The notes below the pieces were generated by a model. The model made no database searches and was not told the origin of the DNA. It saw only the letters and a program-made list of their open reading frames with translations. Source: Thiobacillus sp. (GTDB taxonomy: Bacteria; Pseudomonadota; Gammaproteobacteria; Burkholderiales; Thiobacillaceae). From it: a stretch of 57,088 nucleotides of DNA. The stretch spans positions 1 through 57,088 of the forward strand of contig JANJWF010000028.1 of assembly GCA_024709685.1 (NCBI GenBank). Reading direction: 5' to 3'. This document shows positions 27,794 through 44,395 of the stretch, one piece after another. The translations under genes and the position numbers were made by a program. Position 1 is the stretch's first letter. Every line of letters begins with the position of its first letter.

Positions 27794-29161
27794 TCAAGCG
27801 GCAGCGCGCTTGCGCGCACGTACCTGGTTCAGAAACGGGGTGATCCACCCATGCTCCCCTGCCCCTCGGCGATGCATATAGCCGGCAAGCAGGTTATAGC
27901 GCTGGTAGCCATCGTGTACGCCGTCGATGCCGTGACCGCGCGTCACCCCGTAAGCGAATATGGAGTCGGCTGGCAGGTTTTCCAAGCTTGAATAGTGAAA
28001 TTCATGCGCCGGAATGCTGGCGGTTTCCTGCCAGCGGTCGTCGCCGGTCGGCTGCAGTCTGGCGTAGCCGCGCCCGACCGGCCGGGCGTGCATCACCGTG
28101 TCACCCGGCACCACGCCGACCATCTCGCGCGTCTGGCCCTGCCAACTCAGACTCCTCGACAAATACATCAGCCCGCCGCACTCGGCGTAAGTGGGCAAGC
28201 CGGCCTCGATGGCCTGACGGAGGCCGCTGCGCAACGACTGGTTGGCTTCGAGTTCTGCCATGAACACCTCGGGGAAACCACCACCGATGATCAGGCCGTC
28301 GAGCTCGGGCAGCGTCGGAGCGTGCAGGGTGTCCACTTCGACCAGTTCAACATCGGCGGCACGCAGGGCGTCGAGATCTTCACTGTAATAAAAACCGAAA
28401 GCCGGATCGTGGGCGATGCCGATCCGCACGCGTTCGGTCGGGGCTGGCGGCTCGACCGGCGCTACGGTGCGCAGGGCCGGGGCGCTGTCGCCGATGGCCA
28501 GCAGGCGGTCGAGATCGACCTGCGCCGCCACCCGCTCGCCCACGTGGCGGATGCGCGCCAATGCGGCGTCCTGTTCGTTGGCCGGCACCAGCCCGAGGTG
28601 GCGCTCGGCGATCTGCATGGCGGGGTCGTGTTGCACCGCTCCGATCACCTCGACCTCGGTGTAATGTTCGATCACCGCACGCAGCTTGGACTCGTGACGA
28701 CTGCCGCCAAGGTTGTTGAGGATGACGCCGGCGATGCGGATGTCGGGGTCGAACGCCTGGTAGCCGAGGATCAGCGGTGCGACGCCGCGGGTCATGCCGC
28801 GCGCGTCGATCACCAGCACCACCGGTGCACCGAGCAGTTTGGCGAGCGCCGCGTTGCTGTTGCTACCGTCGAGATCGAGGCCGTCATACAGGCCCTTGTT
28901 TCCTTCGATCAGGCTGATGCGTGCGCCGGCCGCGCGACGCGCAAACTGCTGCTCGATCTCGTGCTGCCGCATCATGTGGAAGTCGAGGTTGTAGCAGGGC
29001 CGCCGCGCCGCCATGCCGAGCCACAGCGGGTCGATATAATCGGGACCCTTCTTGAACGGCTGCACCGCATGTCCCCGCGCGTCCAGGGCGGCGCACAGGC
29101 CGAGCGTGAGCGTGGTCTTGCCGGACGATTTATGCGCGGCAGAAATGAAGACGCGGGGCAT
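27794..29161 (-). CDS. dsrN: DsrN, siroheme amidase (CobB/cobyrinate a,c-diamide synthase-like)
   Basis: 455 residues. The N-terminal dethiobiotin-synthase-like P-loop domain has SAAHKSSGKTTLTLGL and FKKGPDYIDPLWLG; the C-terminal glutamine amidotransferase domain has YAECGGLMYLSRSL with the nucleophile Cys and ends near HGIDGVHDGYQRYN. It is thought to amidate siroheme to the form used by oxidative DsrAB. The start is ambiguous: ATG 29161 (MPRVFISA) fits the family, while ATG 29173 adds four codons (MKDR) that come from a palindromic repeat. Confidence 0.92.
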   Translation of the reverse strand: MPRVFISAAHKSSGKTTLTLGLCAALDARGHAVQPFKKGPDYIDPLWLGMAARRPCYNLDFHMMRQHEIEQQFARRAAGARISLIEGNKGLYDGLDLDGSNSNAALAKLLGAPVVLVIDARGMTRGVAPLILGYQAFDPDIRIAGVILNNLGGSRHESKLRAVIEHYTEVEVIGAVQHDPAMQIAERHLGLVPANEQDAALARIRHVGERVAAQVDLDRLLAIGDSAPALRTVAPVEPPAPTERVRIGIAHDPAFGFYYSEDLDALRAADVELVEVDTLHAPTLPELDGLIIGGGFPEVFMAELEANQSLRSGLRQAIEAGLPTYAECGGLMYLSRSLSWQGQTREMVGVVPGDTVMHARPVGRGYARLQPTGDDRWQETASIPAHEFHYSSLENLPADSIFAYGVTRGHGIDGVHDGYQRYNLLAGYMHRRGAGEHGWITPFLNQVRARKRAAA

Positions 29162-29275
29162 ACGATCTTTCATGAGGCGTCAGCCTCATAGAAAGTCGGA
29201 GTCCTCTTGTAGTAGGGCATACGATCTTTCATGAGGCTTTAGGCCTCGTGGGCAATCGGAGTGCTCTTGTAGGGC
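29156..29275 (-). repeat. Two tandem palindromic repeats overlapping the dsrN start
   Basis: Two units of 59 bp begin GGGCATACGATCTTTCATGA at 29156 and 29215. Each folds as a hairpin: unit 1 ATGAGGC-GTCA-GCCTCAT closed by CTTTC/GAAAG, unit 2 CATGAGGC-TTTA-GGCCTCGTG. Both end TCGGAGT(C/G)CTCTTGTAG. A partial third start (GGGCATGCG) follows at 29272. The dsrN start codon and probable ribosome site lie in unit 1. Confidence 0.85.
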
Positions 29276-36169: not shown

Positions 36170-36268
36170 ACTCTATCCCCCAACAACAACGTTATGTTTA
36201 CGAATCGAACGCGAGCCGCCAGCGACCCAGCCGCATTCGATTGGGAAACACAGCCTGCAGACCGGAGC

Positions 36269-36289
36269 CGCCCCGATGGAACCGGGGCG
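36269..36289 (-). promoter_or_regulatory. Hairpin after dsrC
   Basis: CGCCCCG / CGGGGCG with a 7-nt loop lies 18 nt downstream of the dsrC stop, before dsrM, without a U-tract. A stabilising or partial-termination role would raise dsrC levels over the membrane-complex genes. Confidence 0.65.
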
Positions 36290-36307
36290 CCCCGATGGCG
36301 TCGCAGC

Positions 36308-36643
36308 TTAAATACAGCCGGTCGGCTTGGGCAGGCCGGCGATCTTACAAGCCTGCTTGGCCGGGCCGTAGGGGAACAACTCGTACAGGTACTTGTTGTT
36401 GCCCTTTTCCGGGCCGAGCTTCTTGCCAATGGCCTTGGTCAGCACGCGCACAGCCGGAGCAATCTGGTACTCGGCGTAATATTCGCGCAGGAAGTTGACG
36501 ACTTCCCAGTGGCTGTCGGTCAGGTCGACCTTTTCTTCGACCGCCATGTACTTGGCGATGTCTTCGTTCCACTGCGACAGATCGACCAGATAACCCTCTT
36601 CGTCGACTTCGACTTCCTTACCGGCGATATTCACCATAGGCAT
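36308..36643 (-). CDS. dsrC: DsrC, sulfur-carrier protein
   Basis: 111 residues, the canonical DsrC. The flexible C-terminal arm ACKIAGLPKPTGCI keeps both redox cysteines, the penultimate one and the one 11 residues before it, which carry the persulfide/trisulfide during exchange with DsrEFH, DsrAB and DsrK. The body shows NIAGKEVEVDEEGYL and VLTKAIGKKLG. A strong AAAGGAG precedes the start. A cysteine-free paralogue lies at 41551. Confidence 0.97.
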   Translation of the reverse strand: MPMVNIAGKEVEVDEEGYLVDLSQWNEDIAKYMAVEEKVDLTDSHWEVVNFLREYYAEYQIAPAVRVLTKAIGKKLGPEKGNNKYLYELFPYGPAKQACKIAGLPKPTGCI

Positions 36644-37743: not shown

Positions 37744-37785
37744 GGCTGCTCAAACTCCGAAAAATCCAGTCATTATTATCAGGGT

Positions 37786-37811
37786 CCGCCGCAACCGTCG
37801 GGTTGCGGCGG
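37786..37811 (-). promoter_or_regulatory. Hairpin between dsrB and dsrE
   Basis: CCGCCGCAACC-GTCG-GGTTGCGGCGG is a perfect 11-bp stem 22 nt after the dsrB stop. There is no U-tract. It could stabilise the dsrAB transcript or limit read-through. Confidence 0.78.
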
Positions 37812-37833
37812 GGCTGACAGCTTTGCGACGCGC

Positions 37834-38904
37834 TTAGAAGCGGATGTGCGCGGAAGCGTTCAGGTTGTAACGGCTGCCGCGCCAGTTATCAATGTGATAC
37901 TTGGTGAAGGGCAGACCGGTTTTCTCGAAGAACGCGGGCCAGCCGATGCGGTCGATCCAGTCGTTCATACGCTCCCACGGCTTGCCGTCTTCCTTGTAGG
38001 TGGCGAGGATCTTCTTGACCACTTCGGCGACTTCCGGCCAGCGCGGTGCGTTATTGGGCAGACCGCTCGCAACCAGTTTGTGGAAGGTCGGCTTGGAACG
38101 GGCGTTCGAGTTCTTGCCGCCCACCCAGATCGCGATCTTGGAGTGCACGGGATCGTTGATCGCCATCGGCGGACAGGGCGGGAAGCACGCACCGCAGCAG
38201 ATGCACTTCTTCTCGTCGACTTCCAGCGAGGGCTTGCCGTTCACCAGGGCGGGGCGGATCGCGGCCACCGGGCAGCGCGCCACGACGGACGGGCGCTCGC
38301 ACACGTTGGCAACCAAGTCATGGTTGATCCGCGGCGGCTTGGTGTGCTGCATGATGATCGCCAGGTCAGCCTGGCCGCCGCAGTTGATTTCGCAGCAGGA
38401 GGTCGACAGCTTGACGCGGTTGGGCATCTCGCACTTGACGAAGTCGTCGTACAGTTCGTCCATCAGCGCCTTGACCACGCCGGAGGCGTCGGTGCCGGGG
38501 ATGTCGCAGTGCAGGAAACCCTGGGTGTGGGCGATCATCGAGATCGAGTTGGCGGTGCCGCCGATGGGATAACCCTTGGCGGAGAGTGCCTTGATCAGCG
38601 GCTCGACCTTGGCGCCGTCGCTCACCATGTACTCGATATTGGAACGCGCGGTGAAACGCACGAAACCGTCTGCGTACTGGTCGGCGATGTCGGCCAGCTC
38701 ACGGATGGTGTAGTGGTCCAACTGGCGCGCCGTGCCGGCCTTGACGGTCCAGATTTCGTCGCCGGACTCGGCGCGGTGATACAGAACACCCGGCTTCGGA
38801 TGGCTGTGGAAAGCCCACTTGCCATAGTTCTTCACCATCATGGGGTGCATGTAGGGCATAGGATCCGGCGCACCGGATTCAATAGGCTGACGCATTTCTG
38901 CCAT
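37834..38904 (-). CDS. dsrB: Sulfite reductase, dissimilatory-type, beta subunit (reverse)
   Basis: 356 residues. The siroheme-[4Fe-4S] motif is STSCCEINCGGQADLAI, with the second half VCERPSVVARCPVAA, and the inserted ferredoxin domain has CICCGACFPPCPPM. It pairs with DsrA as the cytoplasmic alpha2-beta2 enzyme that oxidises DsrC-bound sulfur to sulfite in sulfur oxidisers. It lies 68 bp after dsrA. Confidence 0.97.
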   Translation of the reverse strand: MAEMRQPIESGAPDPMPYMHPMMVKNYGKWAFHSHPKPGVLYHRAESGDEIWTVKAGTARQLDHYTIRELADIADQYADGFVRFTARSNIEYMVSDGAKVEPLIKALSAKGYPIGGTANSISMIAHTQGFLHCDIPGTDASGVVKALMDELYDDFVKCEMPNRVKLSTSCCEINCGGQADLAIIMQHTKPPRINHDLVANVCERPSVVARCPVAAIRPALVNGKPSLEVDEKKCICCGACFPPCPPMAINDPVHSKIAIWVGGKNSNARSKPTFHKLVASGLPNNAPRWPEVAEVVKKILATYKEDGKPWERMNDWIDRIGWPAFFEKTGLPFTKYHIDNWRGSRYNLNASAHIRF

Positions 38905-38928
38905 GTTTTCTCTCCAACTGATTTAATG

Positions 38929-38960
38929 CGTGAGCCCGGGTTCGCACCGCGGGACTCACG
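38929..38960 (-). promoter_or_regulatory. Hairpin between dsrA and dsrB
   Basis: CGTGAGCCCG and CGGGACTCACG pair with a single bulged A around an 11-nt loop. It fills most of the dsrA-dsrB spacer, directly upstream of the dsrA stop side. Confidence 0.6.
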
Positions 38961-38972
38961 GGTAAACGAAAC

Positions 38973-40280
38973 TCAAGCTGCGGACTGCGACTGTTTGTAC
39001 TCGTTCCACTTCTCGACCTGCTCGTCCCAGTCGTCGGAACGGAAGTAGGGGTTCATGCGCGGCTGGCTGATCTGGTTGGGATCGACCGGAATATCCATGC
39101 CCTCGAGGAAGTTGGCCAGGCCGATACGCTCGATCATCTCGCCGGTACGCTCGTGCTCCAGGGCGTTTTCCGCGAAGAAGTCGATGATGTTACGCGACAA
39201 CTCGTTCAGCTTCTCGAAATCCTCGTCGGACTCGAGCTTCATGAACGGGATCACGACGGTACCCATAGTGGCACCGATCTTCAGCACGCTCTTGCCGCCC
39301 ACCAGGATGGTGACACCCTTGTCCACACCCGTGCGCAGGCCGCCGGGGATGACGTTGAGGCATTGCATGCAGCGCACGCAGTTCTTGTTGTCGATACACA
39401 GGCTGTTGCCGTCGCCCAGCTTGGCAACCGAGGTGTGCTCGTTGGCCTGCACCTTGTCGGAAGCAACCAGGGTGATGGCGCGGGTCGGGCACTTGCTGAC
39501 CACGTCGTTGACGAGATCGGTCATGCCGTGCGCCTGGTAGTACTGCTGCACGATCTTCTCATCGACGCGGATGTTGTCGCGCCAGGTGCCGATGGTCGCC
39601 ATGTCCGAGCGCTGGATCGCATTGACGCAGTCGTTCGGGCAGCCGGAAAACTTGAACTTGAACTTGTAGGGCAGAGACGGGCGGTGCATGTCATCGATGT
39701 TGTTGTTGATGACAGTGCGCAGCGCCTTGGCCTCGTCGAAGCAGGAATGCTCGCAACGCGCCGCGCCGACACAGGACATCGAGGTACGCAGCGAGGGGCC
39801 TGCGCCACCGAGGTCGAAACCCATTTCGTTGAACTTGTCGAAGGCCCGCTGCACGTCGACGGTCTTGATGCCCTGGAGCATGATGTCGCCGGACTGGCCA
39901 TGAAGACCGATCAGGCCCGAACCGCCGGTTGCCGACCAGGCGTCACACATCTTGCGCAGCAGATCGGAGCTGTAATGCATGCCGGGAGGCGGCATGATGC
40001 GCAGGGTATGGAATTCGGCCGCCTCGGGGAACACCGGGTTGTGGTTTTCGTCCTTCAGTTCGGTGAACCGCGGGATCACGCCACCGCCGTAACCGAACAC
40101 GCCGACCGTGCCGCCCTTCCAGTAGCCTTTCATGTCCTTGTAGGACGTTTCGAGCTGGCCCATCAGGTCGACCATCATGTCGTTGTCCTTGGCCAGGCGC
40201 TTCAGGTTGGTCACGAAGCTGGGCCACGGACCGCTCTCGAGCGCGTCCAGATTGGGCGTATCAATCATCTTCTTTGCCAT
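38973..40280 (-). CDS. dsrA: Sulfite reductase, dissimilatory-type, alpha subunit (reverse)
   Basis: 435 residues. Siroheme/cluster cysteines are in SCVGAARCEHSCFDEAKALR and FSGCPNDCVNAIQ; the ferredoxin insert has CIDNKNCVRCMQCLNVIPG. Catalyses six-electron oxidation to sulfite with DsrB. ATG 40280 (MAKKMIDTPNL) follows AGGAGA; the frame extends to 40346 with no better site. It is the first gene of a minus-strand run of at least 17 genes. Confidence 0.97.
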   Translation of the reverse strand: MAKKMIDTPNLDALESGPWPSFVTNLKRLAKDNDMMVDLMGQLETSYKDMKGYWKGGTVGVFGYGGGVIPRFTELKDENHNPVFPEAAEFHTLRIMPPPGMHYSSDLLRKMCDAWSATGGSGLIGLHGQSGDIMLQGIKTVDVQRAFDKFNEMGFDLGGAGPSLRTSMSCVGAARCEHSCFDEAKALRTVINNNIDDMHRPSLPYKFKFKFSGCPNDCVNAIQRSDMATIGTWRDNIRVDEKIVQQYYQAHGMTDLVNDVVSKCPTRAITLVASDKVQANEHTSVAKLGDGNSLCIDNKNCVRCMQCLNVIPGGLRTGVDKGVTILVGGKSVLKIGATMGTVVIPFMKLESDEDFEKLNELSRNIIDFFAENALEHERTGEMIERIGLANFLEGMDIPVDPNQISQPRMNPYFRSDDWDEQVEKWNEYKQSQSAA

Positions 40281-40619
40281 AGTTTCTTCTCCTAGAACAT
40301 TTCGAATTGCCCGCTTAGCCGACAGCTCAACGGTTTGCACCATCATATTGACTTGGCGGATTCATGACCATCATTCTCACGGGTAAAACAAATACGCCAT
40401 CGCGGTAGTACATAACCCCCCCCAAAAGGGTTATATGAGCCCTCCCAAGATGGGAATGCCTCATTCACGCAAAGGGTGAGACATTACCGGCCCGCCACTG
40501 AGTCGATAAGAGTATTAAAATATTCTTGGCCGTGCAAGCATTGGTTACTTGAATTGCCAAATAGCATCCCCACCATCGGCCCGGTTGCACTTTGAATGAA
40601 GCATCACGGATTTGAGTCC
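40281..40619. promoter_or_regulatory. Divergent dsrA / cas6-like regulatory region
   Basis: About 340 bp separate the divergent starts. It is A/T-richer than its surroundings and holds an imperfect dyad GAGTATT-AA-AATATTC (40510-40525), hairpins ATAACCC/GGGTTAT (about 40409-40434) and TCCCA-AGA-TGGGA (40444-40456), and CTCATTC/GGGTGAG. The dyad is a candidate operator and the hairpins would lie in a long dsr 5' leader. No clear consensus -35/-10 pair stands out. Confidence 0.55.
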
Positions 40620-40841
40620 ATGCCCGAGATTACGCCCCTAGACAAAATGCGGTTGCCGTTCGGCGGCCAGGAAATCGAATTCCAGCACCTGACGCACGAG
40701 TCCGGCGGCGTGCCGTTTCTGCGCATCCGTATCCGTGAAAACAAGCGCTTCACCATATTCGACGTCGACCCCCCCAGCGCGCAAAAGTGGGCCGAGTTCA
40801 TGCTGGCCTGGGCCCGGGATCATGCGGGAGACGCGCCATGA
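40620..40841 (+). CDS. Small unknown protein upstream of the Cas6-like gene
   Basis: 73 residues (MPEITPLDKMRLPFGGQEIE; FTIFDVDPPSAQKWAEFMLA). I do not recognise the family. It is soluble, with an alternating beta pattern in the centre and a C-terminal helix. ATG 40596 would add eight residues. Its stop overlaps the Cas6-like start by 4 nt (ATGA), so the two are made together. Confidence 0.75.
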   Translation: MPEITPLDKMRLPFGGQEIEFQHLTHESGGVPFLRIRIRENKRFTIFDVDPPSAQKWAEFMLAWARDHAGDAP

Positions 40842-41494
40842 GCTGGGGCTGGCCCGAAGACAAACCGGAAGAATACGTGCCGCGCATGATCGATCTGCAA
40901 TTCGATCTGGTGGGCACGACGATTCCGGCCGAGAGCGCGCAATTGCTGTCCGATGCACTCCTCGGCGCGCTGCCCTGGCTGGGCGAAGATCCCGCTACCG
41001 GCGTCCATCATCTCAAAGGCGCGGAAACCAACAGCGGCGATCTCTCGCTCAACATCAACCGGCGCACCAAGCTTTTCATACGGGTCCCCAAGGTGCGGGT
41101 AGACGACATGCAGCAACTGGTCGGCCAGAGCCTGGACCTGGCGGGCCACGCGCTGCAGATCGGCAGCTTCAAGCCCCGCGAATTCAGCCCGTTCAATCAT
41201 ATCTATGCGCACTTTGTTGACACGGGCAGCGCGAGTGAAGAACAATTCGTGCAGGACGTGATGCGCGAGCTGGACGGTCACTTTCACCTGCACTGCGGTT
41301 TCATCTGCGGCAAGCCGCAAACGCTACAAAGCGCATCTGGGCCGCTGCACGGGTTCAGCCTGATGCTGCACGACGTCCCCCCGCACAAGTCCCTGCAGTT
41401 CCAGGACGAGGGGATCGGACGCAACCACCTGTTGGGCTGTGGGATTTTCATCCCGCATAAATCCATCGCACCCGTAGTTCCGGCCATTCTTTAA
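40838..41494 (+). CDS. Orphan Cas6/Cmx6-like RAMP protein
   Basis: 218 residues that match the pattern of the Cas6/Cmx6 (type I-MYXAN) family: an N-terminal ferredoxin-like half (MIDLQFDLVGTTIPAESAQL, PWLGEDPATGVHHLKG), NRRTKLFIRVP, then HCGFICGKPQTL, GFSLMLHDVPPHKSLQFQDE and the glycine-rich C-terminal loop GIGRNHLLGCGIFIPHKSI. Cas6 enzymes cut CRISPR precursor RNA, with a His commonly involved; HH in VHHLKG is a candidate. There is no CRISPR array or other cas gene in the window, so a non-CRISPR RNA role beside the dsr genes is likely. The family call is from memory of motifs. Confidence 0.72.
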   Translation: MSWGWPEDKPEEYVPRMIDLQFDLVGTTIPAESAQLLSDALLGALPWLGEDPATGVHHLKGAETNSGDLSLNINRRTKLFIRVPKVRVDDMQQLVGQSLDLAGHALQIGSFKPREFSPFNHIYAHFVDTGSASEEQFVQDVMRELDGHFHLHCGFICGKPQTLQSASGPLHGFSLMLHDVPPHKSLQFQDEGIGRNHLLGCGIFIPHKSIAPVVPAIL

Positions 41495-41550
41495 ACCCGA
41501 GGCCGGCGCTGCGGCAATTTCTTTAACAACCATCCTGAAAGGAGAAAAAG

Positions 41551-41883
41551 ATGTCTTACGTTGTAAACGGCGAAGAGCTTGAAACTGGTGATGAGGACTT
41601 TCTGCTGGAAGCCAATTTCAGCGACGACGTTCCCCCGGTCATCGCCGCAGCCGAGAAAATCACGCTGACCGACGAGCACTGGACGGTCATCCACTACCTG
41701 CGCGACAAATACAAGGAAGACGGCCAAACGCCGAACTTCCGCAACATGCTGGCAGAAATCGAAGACCTGCACCCGGGCACCGACTGGAAGAAAAAGCTGT
41801 ACGAGCTGTTCCCCAACATGCCGGCTCGCCAGGGTGCGCGTGTTGCCGGCCTGCCCAAGCCCTTCGGCAAGGGCGGCTACTGA
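41551..41883 (+). CDS. DsrC/TusE-family protein lacking both cysteines
   Basis: 110 residues, clearly homologous to DsrC (ITLTDEHWTVIHYLRDKYKE, LYELFPNMPARQGARVAGLP). At the C-terminus the two redox positions are changed: the upstream Cys is Ala in RQGARVAGLP and the penultimate Cys is lost in KPFGKGGY. It contains no cysteine, so it cannot carry sulfur; it resembles the RspA-like branch suggested to be regulatory. A strong AAAGGAG lies before ATG 41551. It could compete with DsrC for partners. Confidence 0.85.
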   Translation: MSYVVNGEELETGDEDFLLEANFSDDVPPVIAAAEKITLTDEHWTVIHYLRDKYKEDGQTPNFRNMLAEIEDLHPGTDWKKKLYELFPNMPARQGARVAGLPKPFGKGGY

Positions 41884-41949: not shown

Positions 41950-42804
41950 ATGCTTTCCAACACCCTCGTTTCCACCGAAGACCTGGCCGCACACCTGGGC
42001 GATCCCAACTGGGTGATCCTGGACTGCCGCTTCACCCTTACCGATACCGGGGCCGGCCGCCAGGCGTATGCGAAAGCCCATATTCCGGGCGCGCACTATG
42101 TGCATCTGGATGACGATCTATCCGCCCCCGTCAGCGAAACCACCGGGCGACATCCGCTGCCTGACCCGCACGTGCTGGCCGAGAAGCTGTGTGCGTGGGG
42201 GATCGGCGTCAACAAGCAAGTGGTGGTATACGACGACAGTTACGGGGCCATGGCCGTGCGGCTGTGGTGGATGATGCGCTGGCTCGGCCACCCTGCCGTG
42301 GCGCTCCTGGATGGCGGTTATCCGAAATGGACGCGCGAGAAGCGGCCGGTCGATGCCGACGTCCCAGTGCCACACAAGGCCGCCTGTGCCTGTCTGCCCG
42401 AACCCACCCAGATCGTGACGGCAGAAGATGTCATGCACGCGTCGAAGACGGGGGAGCAGATCATCATCGACGCGCGCCCGGACCGCCGCTTCACCGGTGA
42501 ATTCGAACCGCTCGATCCGGTGGCCGGGCACGTGCCAGGCGCCATCAACTATCCGTTCGACGAGAACCTCGACGTGGACGGCACCTTCCTGCCGCCAGAG
42601 GCCCTGCGCGAGAACTACCAGGCGCTGCTGAAGGGCAGGCCCGCCTGGCAGGTGCTCCACATGTGCGGCTCCGGCGTCACCGCCTGCCACAATATCCTGG
42701 CGATGGAAATCGCCGGGCTCCCCGGTTCCCGCCTCTACCCCGGCTCGTGGAGCGAGTGGATCACCGATCCCACCCGCCCCGTCGCCACAGGCGAGGCCAA
42801 CTGA
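41950..42804 (+). CDS. sseA: Two-domain sulfurtransferase (thiosulfate/3-mercaptopyruvate type)
   Basis: 284 residues with two rhodanese domains. The second has the active loop CGSGVTACHNIL and ends GSWSEWITDPTRPV, both typical of SseA-type enzymes; the first (VILDCRFTLTDTGAGRQAYA, IPGAHYVHLDDDLS) is inactive as usual. CGSGVT is closer to mercaptopyruvate sulfurtransferases than to CRKGVT thiosulfate enzymes. It fits a sulfur-handling neighbourhood. Confidence 0.92.
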   Translation: MLSNTLVSTEDLAAHLGDPNWVILDCRFTLTDTGAGRQAYAKAHIPGAHYVHLDDDLSAPVSETTGRHPLPDPHVLAEKLCAWGIGVNKQVVVYDDSYGAMAVRLWWMMRWLGHPAVALLDGGYPKWTREKRPVDADVPVPHKAACACLPEPTQIVTAEDVMHASKTGEQIIIDARPDRRFTGEFEPLDPVAGHVPGAINYPFDENLDVDGTFLPPEALRENYQALLKGRPAWQVLHMCGSGVTACHNILAMEIAGLPGSRLYPGSWSEWITDPTRPVATGEAN

Positions 42805-42825: not shown

Positions 42826-43446
42826 ATGGTCAAACCCGTACGAGTCCGCACCATCTGGTTCAAGAAGGACGGCGAACGCAGTGCCGAGGAAATCGCCACC
42901 GCTGTCGCCTCCACGATCTGGCGCGTCGCCGACAAGGCGGTCGACAACCTCGGCCAAGAGAACTACGACATCATCACCCCGGCACGCGGCTTCAAGCTGA
43001 TCGCCGAATTCGTCGCCTTCCTCGTGCACTACTGCGACCGCATGGCCTACGCGACCCAGACGCCCGAGCGCCGTGTCACGGTGCTGCAGGCGATCAGCAC
43101 CCGGCTGGGCGAAGTGATGGAAGAAAACATCGTCGAGGCGGTCGGCCCCGACCCTAGCCGCAACTTCAAGGCCGAGTTCATCGACTTCCTCAACCGTCGC
43201 TTCGCCGACTACGCCGAATTCGAGTTTCCCGACGAAGAGAAGGCCAGCTTCCCGGCGCTGCGCTTCCTCGGCCTGCAGATCCGCGAGGAGATGGGCGAGG
43301 ACGACAAGACCTGGATCATGGACCAGATCATGGACATCGAAATGCCCGAAATGATGGGAACGGTGAGCAAGAGCTTCAAGGGGCTCCTGTCCGACGCCCC
43401 GGTCAAGCGCGGCTTCGGTTCGCCCGACATGCTGCCGCCGGAATAA
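42826..43446 (+). CDS. Unknown conserved-looking protein, 206 residues
   Basis: AAAAGGAGAG gives a strong start at ATG 42826. I do not recognise the family. It is soluble and mostly helical (VASTIWRVADKAVDNLGQEN, KAEFIDFLNRRFADYAEFEF), rich in acidic and Met residues near WIMDQIMDIEMPEMMG. It lies between a sulfurtransferase and a TauD-like oxygenase with short gaps, probably one transcript. Confidence 0.8.
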   Translation: MVKPVRVRTIWFKKDGERSAEEIATAVASTIWRVADKAVDNLGQENYDIITPARGFKLIAEFVAFLVHYCDRMAYATQTPERRVTVLQAISTRLGEVMEENIVEAVGPDPSRNFKAEFIDFLNRRFADYAEFEFPDEEKASFPALRFLGLQIREEMGEDDKTWIMDQIMDIEMPEMMGTVSKSFKGLLSDAPVKRGFGSPDMLPPE

Positions 43447-43450
43447 GTCG

Positions 43451-44395
43451 TTGGCGGCATCACCCTTCGATCTGGCCAACGAGAGCGGTTACCGAGCCTG
43501 GCGTGATGCCAGACTCGCCGCCTATCCGCGCAGCGTCGACGAGCTCGTCGTGCCGCTGGCCGACCCATGGCACCTGAGTGCTGACGAACTCGCCGCGATC
43601 GAAGCCCGCTGTGCGCGTGCCAACATGGCGATCTACAGCGTGCCGCATCTCCCGGCCGCCGACAAGTCGCTCGCCAGGGAACTCGGGCGGCAGCTTGGCC
43701 TGGCCCGGCTCGAGGGCAACTACCTCGCCGACGAGGACGGGCTGTCCAGCATCACGCCGGCCGCCGACGCAGACGGCAGCGTGCGCGGCGAATACATTCC
43801 CTACACCCACAAGCCGATCAACTGGCACACCGACGGCTACTACAACGCACTCGACCGCCGCATCCTCGGCATGACGCTGCACTGCGCGCAGGACGCTGAG
43901 CGCGGCGGCGAGAATGCGCTGCTCGACCACGAGATCGCCTACATCCAGTTGCGCGACGTCGATCCGGATTACGTCGCCGCGCTGATGCAGCCCGACGCGA
44001 TGACGATTCCGGCACGCATGGACGAGGTTTCCCTCTCCCAGGGGGAGAGATCGCAAACGCCGAATCAAGACCAATCGATCGGCCGCGCCGAGCAGAGCGG
44101 CCCGGTGTTCGCAGTCGATCCCGACGCGGGCTTTCTCACCATGCGCTACACGGCGCGCACCCGCTCGATCGCGTGGAAGGCCGGCGCCATCACGCAAGCC
44201 GCGGTCAGAACGCTGGCCGACATCCTGGCGAACTCAGAATACATCCTCACCGCACGCCTCGCCCCCGGCATGGGCCTGGTCTGCAACAACGTGCTGCACA
44301 CCCGCAGCGCATTTTCCGATTCTCCCGAACACCGCCGCCTGCTTTATCGCGGGCGCTATTACGACCGTCTGAGCTTTCCCACACACGCGGCTTAG
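43451..44395 (+). CDS. TauD/TfdA-family Fe(II) 2-oxoglutarate-type dioxygenase
   Basis: 314 residues. The iron-binding motif is HTD in PINWHTDGYYN, with the distal His/Arg region VCNNVLHTRSAFSD and YRGRYYDRL. GGENALLDHEIAY is also typical. The substrate is unknown; a sulfonate or a haem/sulfur-linked role is possible from context only. TTG 43451 is the likely start. A run EVSLSQGERSQTPNQ near residue 195 looks inserted and contains a palindrome (44033-44049). Confidence 0.82.
   Translation: MAASPFDLANESGYRAWRDARLAAYPRSVDELVVPLADPWHLSADELAAIEARCARANMAIYSVPHLPAADKSLARELGRQLGLARLEGNYLADEDGLSSITPAADADGSVRGEYIPYTHKPINWHTDGYYNALDRRILGMTLHCAQDAERGGENALLDHEIAYIQLRDVDPDYVAALMQPDAMTIPARMDEVSLSQGERSQTPNQDQSIGRAEQSGPVFAVDPDAGFLTMRYTARTRSIAWKAGAITQAAVRTLADILANSEYILTARLAPGMGLVCNNVLHTRSAFSDSPEHRRLLYRGRYYDRLSFPTHAA
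44033..44049 (+). repeat. Palindrome inside the TauD-like gene
   Basis: CTCTCCC-AGG-GGGAGAG is a perfect 7-bp stem in frame, encoding SLSQGE. It resembles the core of bacterial REP-type sequences and coincides with an apparent insertion relative to the usual TauD fold. Confidence 0.5.

Follow-up and report, generated by a model that had tools for sequence, protein, structure and literature searches.

A Cas6/Cmx6-family protein encoded outside CRISPR loci as an almost invariable companion of the reverse Dsr system in Beta- and Gammaproteobacteria

Much of the sulfur oxidation in sediments, at vents and in symbioses is driven by oxidative Dsr, on which DsrR of Allochromatium vinosum is said to act post-transcriptionally. 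To our knowledge, proposals of such control for dsr have named no RNA-binding protein. The gene examined here, at positions 40838-41494 of a 57,088-nucleotide stretch of a Thiobacillus sp. genome (contig JANJWF010000028.1, assembly GCA_024709685.1; hereafter the window), stands beside a dsr operon and encodes a protein of the Cas6/Cmx6 family. Its closest described relatives are the Cas6/Cmx6 proteins of type I-MYXAN clustered regularly interspaced short palindromic repeat (CRISPR) systems and of the type I-B CRISPR-associated transposon (CAST) Cascade (structures 8fcj and 8fcu), with which it shares the fold, a Gly-rich loop, R82 and, in most of its own relatives, His33. It differs from them in having no cas neighbours, a clade of its own, a PHK ending and the residues R76 and E134, and in its neighbours, which are dsr genes, a small protein gene and the gene of a DsrC paralogue ending in KGGY (DsrC0).

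Solo Cas4 and casposon Cas1 are examples of Cas proteins that stand apart from CRISPR loci or reside in mobile elements (PMC5704561, PMC9939771); the dsr-linked Cas6 is like them in standing outside CRISPR and unlike them in its tie to an energy pathway. DsrC0 belongs to the same fold family as DsrC and TusE (PF04358, TIGR03342). Among DsrC sequences, the penultimate cysteine is strictly conserved (PMC3397948). DsrC homologues without the two cysteines are encoded outside the dsr operon in the Solemya velum symbiont (PMC4287430), and Thiodictyon syntrophicum already provides an instance of a DsrC-like gene close to dsr, THSYN_22565 being numbered close to its dsr cluster (PMC5944118, which also cites DNA binding of A. 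vinosum DsrC upstream of dsr). The four extra DsrC-family genes of A. vinosum bear numbers that do not adjoin those of dsr (PMC3368242). DsrC0 differs from these earlier DsrC-like genes by its fixed place beside the Cas6-like gene and dsr and by its constant KGGY tail. DsrR, which takes part in the regulation of sulfur oxidation in A. vinosum (PMC11406059), is comparable in being an accessory protein that is linked to dsr and serves in regulation; it belongs to an unrelated family and is encoded elsewhere in the dsr operon. In the open-licence literature, as far as its accessible portions go, we found no report of a Cas6 gene next to dsr or of the module.

Family, clade and gene order of the Cas6-like protein

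The protein has the family signature and fold of Cas6 and forms a separate clade; its gene goes with dsr, not with cas1, and usually stands just behind that of a small protein. An initial annotation, made from the letters of the window, had recognised Cas6/Cmx6-like motifs in it. A profile search matched it at full length to TIGR02807 (cas6_cmx6), with 209.4 bits where the cut-off is 98.85 and an alignment covering profile positions 2-197 of 197; it also matched PF09559 (E 7e-56) and, with E values as low as 1e-62, Cas6 models of PADLOC. The assignment is not due to a chance motif, and the profile check proposed with the initial annotation came out in its favour. The AlphaFold model, with a predicted local distance difference test score (pLDDT) of 89.2, agrees with the Cas6 fold as well: its template modelling (TM) score is 0.81 to 8fcu_B, Cas6 of the I-B CAST Cascade, and 0.79-0.81 over 8fcj and 8fcu.

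In a tree of 87 sequences, for which 45 of 128 gammaproteobacterial and 9 of 31 genus sequences were drawn, at random apart from that of the window, nine CRISPR or plasmid rows split from 78 dsr-type rows with support 100/99. CRISPR Cmx6 and the dsr-type protein would share an ancestor whose first role may have been either; the tree is rooted at its midpoint and so gives no direction of descent. Among the cyanobacterial plasmid Cmx6 controls, cas genes adjoin in seven of eight records. On a Gloeobacter plasmid (L149, 5971-6762) a Cmx6 gene has no cas neighbours and lies beside genes of the PAPS-reductase family and a cupin.

The genes and elements of the window that concern us are listed here by coordinates and strand; the names dsrB, E, F, H, M, K, L, J, O, P, N and R in these operons are those that we take the genes to have.

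40596-40841, plus: DUF6967 small protein of 81 amino acids (PF22295, E 4e-30), likely partner of the Cas6-like protein
40838-41494, plus: Cas6/Cmx6-family protein of 218 amino acids, dsr-linked subfamily (TIGR02807)
41551-41883, plus: DsrC paralogue (DsrC0) of 110 amino acids, KGGY end, cysteine-free (PF04358, E 2e-29)
41950-42804, plus: rhodanese-family sulfurtransferase (PF00581, E 1e-28; synteny)
42826-43446, plus: 206-amino-acid protein with no Pfam match over the cut-off, in synteny with the module
43451-44395, plus: TauD/TfdA-family dioxygenase, start uncertain (PF02668, E 2.5e-18; synteny)
40281-40595, no strand: divergent leader between dsrA and the DUF6967 gene, folded on average, little conserved structure
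38973-40280, minus: dsrA (TIGR02064, 490 bits)
37834-38904, minus: presumably dsrB, from operon order
36308-36643, minus: canonical dsrC with both C-terminal cysteines, named from its sequence end and operon order
38905-38972, minus: dsrA-dsrB intercistronic hairpin (16 sequences)
37744-37833, minus: hairpin between dsrB and dsrE that covaries within the genus (two-sided change in 7 of 15 pairs, 18 sequences)
36170-36307, minus: dsrC-dsrM intercistronic region with two covarying hairpins (two-sided change in 13 of 31 pairs, 18 sequences)

The gene order is as first described: the stop codon of the small gene, now identified as DUF6967 (103.9 bits against a profile cut-off of 27), overlaps the start of the Cas6-like gene in an ATGA at 40838-40841, 56 bp separate the latter from the DsrC0 gene, and all three diverge from dsrA. 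A rhodanese-family gene accompanies the module in most betaproteobacterial relatives. The TauD/TfdA-family dioxygenase gene occurs with it in 69 of 80 loci from a named genome collection (the best 80 of 579 relatives).

Distribution across genomes and relation to CRISPR systems

A dsrA gene was counted as present at E <= 1e-30, a threshold set to exclude the assimilatory sulfite reductases, which match the dsrA profile at weaker E in 6 of 14 control genomes. The window genome itself (195 contigs, 79% complete, a single copy of the Cas6-like family) was excluded from the relative and class counts, and many of the sampled genomes are incomplete metagenome-assembled genomes. Among 119 relatives, 75 carry the Cas6-like gene, 76 carry dsrA and 75 carry both, with none carrying the Cas6-like gene only. 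The gene is present in 52 of 53 dsrA genomes of the genus, 14 of 14 of the family and 9 of 9 of the order, and in 0 of 2, 0 of 2 and 0 of 39 genomes without dsrA at the same ranks; one genus genome (G027) has a short match below the cut-off. In G040, the sole relative with dsrA only (79% complete), the contig breaks off 680 bp past dsrA.

The same association holds across the class. Of 368 genomes, 117 carry the Cas6-like gene, 118 dsrA and 110 both (odds ratio about 480, Fisher p 2e-74), so that the co-occurrence with dsr, the lack of which would have told against the initial annotation, is borne out. In all seven genomes with the Cas6-like gene only, the gene lies at most 2.7 kb from a contig end and has a dioxygenase and/or DsrC-like neighbour (the latter on the opposite strand in G417); dsrN/dsrR-like genes stand beside it in G435 (L124), and a stretch of dsrA in G436 (L126). 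G053 (2.5e-22) and G436 (8e-19) fall below the dsrA threshold and may hold dsr fragments. We inspected six of the eight genomes with dsrA only (all but G198 and G356). In G325, G228, G189 and G241 the contig stops soon after dsrA (150, 657, 194 bp) or past the dioxygenase (1.9 kb), G472 has no trace of the Cas6-like gene over 1.8 kb, and G329 has none over about 10.8 kb, which looks like a true absence. The gene persists in genomes of 1.0-1.1 Mb. In a phylum sample of 299 genomes, searched for the Cas6-like gene, the four matches are the window genome and three more of its order. The window genome holds in addition an orphan dsrA-like gene (G000:C134:25286-26536, minus strand; L244) and G011 two further ones (L245, L246), all about 80% identical to the operon dsrA; no dsrB or dsrE/F/H matches were found around these genes within the stretches L244-L246.

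The neighbourhood is equally regular. In 40 of 40 loci of the same genus, family and order the Cas6-like gene is followed by the KGGY-ended DsrC paralogue, and dsrA stands divergently upstream in 39, with a contig end in its place in the remaining one. Among 40 class loci, chosen as best matches, complete genomes, tiny genomes and exceptions rather than at random, dsr genes lie within the stretch examined in 30 and the KGGY-ended DsrC in 34. In the 80 named-collection loci the figures are 62 and 69, and 11 of the 18 loci without dsr have less than 2.5 kb of upstream DNA; titles there include Thiohalobacter, Thiogranum, Thioploca, Parabeggiatoa, Marithrix, Thiomargarita and a Solemya symbiont. 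Four loci of giant bacteria (L168, L173, L207, L220) have no dsr gene or DsrC0 within the stretch examined. In three dsr-positive genomes the Cas6-like gene lies far from the operon, at about 42 kb in G227, at about 518 kb in G442 and on another contig in G423, and its retention is therefore not explained by hitchhiking only. At L115 and L116, away from dsr, it diverges from genes that we take to be rnc-era-recO-like and is followed by a thioredoxin-like gene. The observation made in the window is thus confirmed and extends to a class-wide gene module.

The small protein is the other regular neighbour. DUF6967 precedes the Cas6-like gene in 39 of the 40 genus, family and order loci, the 40th being cut by a contig end. 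Betaproteobacterial loci have DUF6967; gammaproteobacterial loci have a protein of 58-71 amino acids with the consensus ML.LSE...gE.fFrmDvkPpf.DTPenWEdrLEaaF and a predicted structure of three helices (pLDDT 90). By a motif rule the latter is found at most 1.3 kb upstream in 123 of 149 loci (some genomes counted twice), or, by distinct Cas6 sequence, in 104 of 128, 64 of these within 120 bp. A small protein stays at the Cas6-like gene away from dsr in L138, L168, L173, L207 and L220. In several gammaproteobacterial loci (for example L109:7012-7719 and L230:7270-7980) a protein of 235-236 amino acids is encoded directly before the Cas6-like gene, and one copy of it has a weak DUF6031 match below the cut-off.

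No such regularity ties the gene to CRISPR systems. The statement that the window has no CRISPR array and no other cas gene proved correct: neither a CRISPR-like array nor cas3, cas8, cas7 or cas5 was seen there, and the same is true of the mapped neighbour loci. Among the 368 class genomes, cas1 (PF01867) was matched in 50 of 117 carriers of the Cas6-like gene and in 85 of 251 non-carriers (odds ratio 1.5, p 0.11), leaving 67 carriers with no cas1 match; carriage of the Cas6-like gene is independent of cas1. A repeat scan of 161 sequences of at least 5 kb, window and controls included, flagged 3 of the 8 cyanobacterial controls, a sign that it is not very sensitive, as well as L168 and L173. 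The apparent arrays beside the Cas6-like gene in these two loci were rejected, as they read as tandem repeats.

Conserved residues, the altered DsrC and RNA structure

We tabulated residues in 191 sequences after removal of duplicates and short entries. R82 is present in all 191 and Q189 in 186, and the Gly-rich loop (G192, G194, G200 and G202) and R82 are common to the dsr-type proteins and the Cmx6 controls. R76, E134, G158 and K208 mark the dsr type and are absent or rare in the eight CRISPR-control Cmx6 sequences. Just ahead of the first helix, His33 is found in 128 of 128 gammaproteobacterial sequences, 21 of 24 other betaproteobacterial ones and 7 of 7 readable CRISPR controls. We take this position to resemble the active His of Cas6e. 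In the genus of the window it is His in 1 of 31 sequences, Asn in 27 and Ser in 3, and the window protein has Ser33, so that it is missing the candidate catalytic His. Since His33 is kept in most relatives, cutting is possible there; since it mostly became Asn or Ser in the window genus, binding without cutting is the likelier activity in that genus. Judged from these residues, the protein would be active or once active in most relatives and probably binding-only in the window genus. Selection in the genus is purifying, with a median ratio of nonsynonymous to synonymous substitution rates of 0.17 for the Cas6-like gene (12 of 18 sequences), 0.08 for DUF6967 (18 sequences) and 0.03 for DsrC.

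The DsrC0 of the window also matches TIGR03342 (78.3 bits against 53.5). It has no cysteine and ends in PFGKGGY, whereas the operon's own DsrC ends in ...KQACKIAGLPKPTGCI. All 29 distinct DsrC0 tails of the genus end in GGY and are without the penultimate redox cysteine, the mark of DsrC as a sulfur carrier. Among KGGY proteins, a cysteine in the last 25 residues occurs in 1 of 23 from the family and order, in 1 of 34 from the chosen class loci and in 0 of 69 from the named collection, where the KGGY count is safer than a broader rule (GGY end or no Cys) that admitted three fragments. The constant trait of DsrC0 is thus the loss of the penultimate cysteine together with the KGGY end, and the protein would have the shape of DsrC without the residue on which the carriage and transfer of sulfur by DsrC depend. 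The tail cysteine varies inside one genus, being kept in L055, L057, L060-L062, L064, L066, L069 and others.

The initial annotation had pointed to four hairpins between the dsr genes as possible targets. These fold in the window genus (18 loci including the window; 16 for dsrA-dsrB) at dsrA-dsrB, at dsrB-dsrE and twice at dsrC-dsrM, with compensatory changes at the last two sites. The second dsrC-dsrM hairpin (36193-36251, minus strand) is highly conserved, covarying and present in one place in the window genome. When the best hairpin of the genus (R1) was made into a covariance model, its own site, on both strands, was the only match in the window genome, and Rfam gave no match in the window at gathering scores. 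Which hairpins follow dsrC depends on the lineage. As to the structured leader that the initial annotation saw between the divergent genes, their fold is on average better than that of shuffled sequences (mean z about -2.5 and -2.7 on the two strands), but the alignment holds little common structure, and as a conserved RNA element the leader is a weak candidate.

A proposed RNA-level role and its alternatives

The interpretation first attached to the locus, an RNA-processing control unit for sulfur oxidation, is partly supported. Taking the comparisons as a whole, we regard a domesticated Cas6 working at the RNA level in sulfur oxidation as the best reading and give it an even chance. The dsr-linked Cas6 would recognise a short RNA hairpin through paired ferredoxin/RNA recognition motif (RRM)-like domains and the glycine-rich loop, as Cas6 does. 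It may cut the RNA in most relatives and bind it without cutting in the window genus, and it would thereby control the stability or translation of dsr RNA or of another sulfur-related RNA. DUF6967, or its gammaproteobacterial counterpart, would be its partner, and the KGGY-ended paralogue could supply the DsrC shape, and hence a means of contacting Dsr proteins, in a form that lacks the penultimate cysteine. The fuller proposal, in which a Cas6 endoribonuclease freed from CRISPR, with a dedicated small partner and the altered DsrC, is a core component of reverse Dsr throughout Beta- and Gammaproteobacteria that has been overlooked and controls the pathway at the RNA level, has in our estimate slightly the worse of an even bet.

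Several findings weigh against this reading. The R1 covariance model found nothing in the other 39 sources or other families searched. The reduced genomes of L111-L114 (1.0-1.1 Mb) keep the Cas6-like gene, and their dsrC-dsrM spacers have 24-32 nt and a minimum free energy (MFE) of 0 to -3.3 kcal/mol; the dsrA-dsrB gaps of L111 (56 nt) and L112 (41 nt) have an MFE near 0, while the L114 dsrA-dsrB (1304 nt) and L111 dsrK-dsrL figures are artefacts of hit choice and were not used. Hairpins after dsrC also occur where no Cas6-like gene was found, on contigs most of which end at or near dsrA. A hairpin target common to the lineages was accordingly rejected. Cutting of the dsr mRNA, as initially suggested, keeps the support of covarying hairpins in the genus and is possible in some lineages, but it is not a general explanation because L111-L114 keep the gene without such structure, and the window protein has Ser33. 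The RNA target is in any case putative. The catalytic role of His33 we infer from its position, which is occupied by Asn in the CAST Cas6 whose structure is known. Homology between DUF6967 and the gammaproteobacterial small protein was dropped (hhalign P 0.053, homology unproven). At L115 and L116 the small protein and DsrC0 are both missing next to the Cas6-like gene, so that neither is a strict partner. The loss of both DsrC0 cysteines, finally, is true of the window copy but not of the family, since 13 of the 29 distinct genus tails keep the earlier one (...PARQGCR...); 'cysteine-free' was rejected as a family trait, and the sensor role built on cysteine loss needs care and is something we can only infer.

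The main rival is a job at the protein level, in which the Cas6-like protein would serve with DsrC0 as a scaffold, a chaperone or an allosteric subunit of a Dsr complex, with no RNA involved. The linkage to a DsrC-fold paralogue, usually with the small partner as well, fits this, as do the retention of the gene where dsrC-dsrM structure is nearly gone and the dsr-type residues R76, E134, G158 and K208. The RNA-facing Gly-rich loop and R82, however, are conserved as in the Cmx6 controls, and some sulfur bacteria keep the gene apart from dsr and DsrC0 in the stretches examined; we hold this explanation to be unlikely, if the most serious of those that compete with the RNA-level role. Lower still we place a target other than dsr mRNA, for instance a tRNA or a small RNA that Dsr organisms need, which appears improbable to us. 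DsrC is related to TusE, which serves in tRNA thiolation; the dsr hairpins are not common across lineages, and the setting of the gene at L115 and L116 beside what we take to be rnc, era and recO suits such a target. Against it stand the direct linkage of most loci to dsr and the lack of a candidate RNA, the Rfam search of the window included.

That the protein is an ordinary Cas6 stranded beside dsr, processing CRISPR RNA from distant arrays, is disfavoured and scarcely credible. The window genome does have CRISPR repeats and cas genes, and the name of the NCBI model is type I-MYXAN Cas6. Its own systems are, however, of type I-C (cas genes and a repeat) and type I-E (cas genes with their own Cas6e), both on other contigs, for which reason the genome is not CRISPR-free. 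Type I-C uses Cas5c, which was itself not scanned in the window genome. Repeats matched to the Cas6-like protein, an outcome that would have told against the initial annotation, are thereby largely excluded, those that exist lying elsewhere in type I-C and I-E surroundings. Moreover, more than half of the class carriers have no cas1 match, carriage tracks dsrA, and no CRISPR array was found adjoining the gene in the loci of at least 5 kb, by a scan that flagged only three of eight controls.

The Cas6-family protein, carried by 110 of the 118 dsrA-bearing class genomes sampled, some of them of 1.0-1.1 Mb, is a concrete candidate for post-transcriptional control of dsr. If the RNA-level role were true, a protein of the CRISPR RNA type would clearly be at work in energy metabolism. 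The module suggests that one part of a major sulfur-energy pathway, perhaps acting at the RNA level, has been overlooked. Calls of 'type I-MYXAN Cas6/Cmx6' in such genomes are by themselves insufficient for counting CRISPR systems.

Two further features of the window lie apart from the module. Imperfect direct repeats of 60 bp occupy 29156-29272, inside the dsr operon region, and a long run of C at 57-177, at the start of the contig, is probably an assembly artefact.

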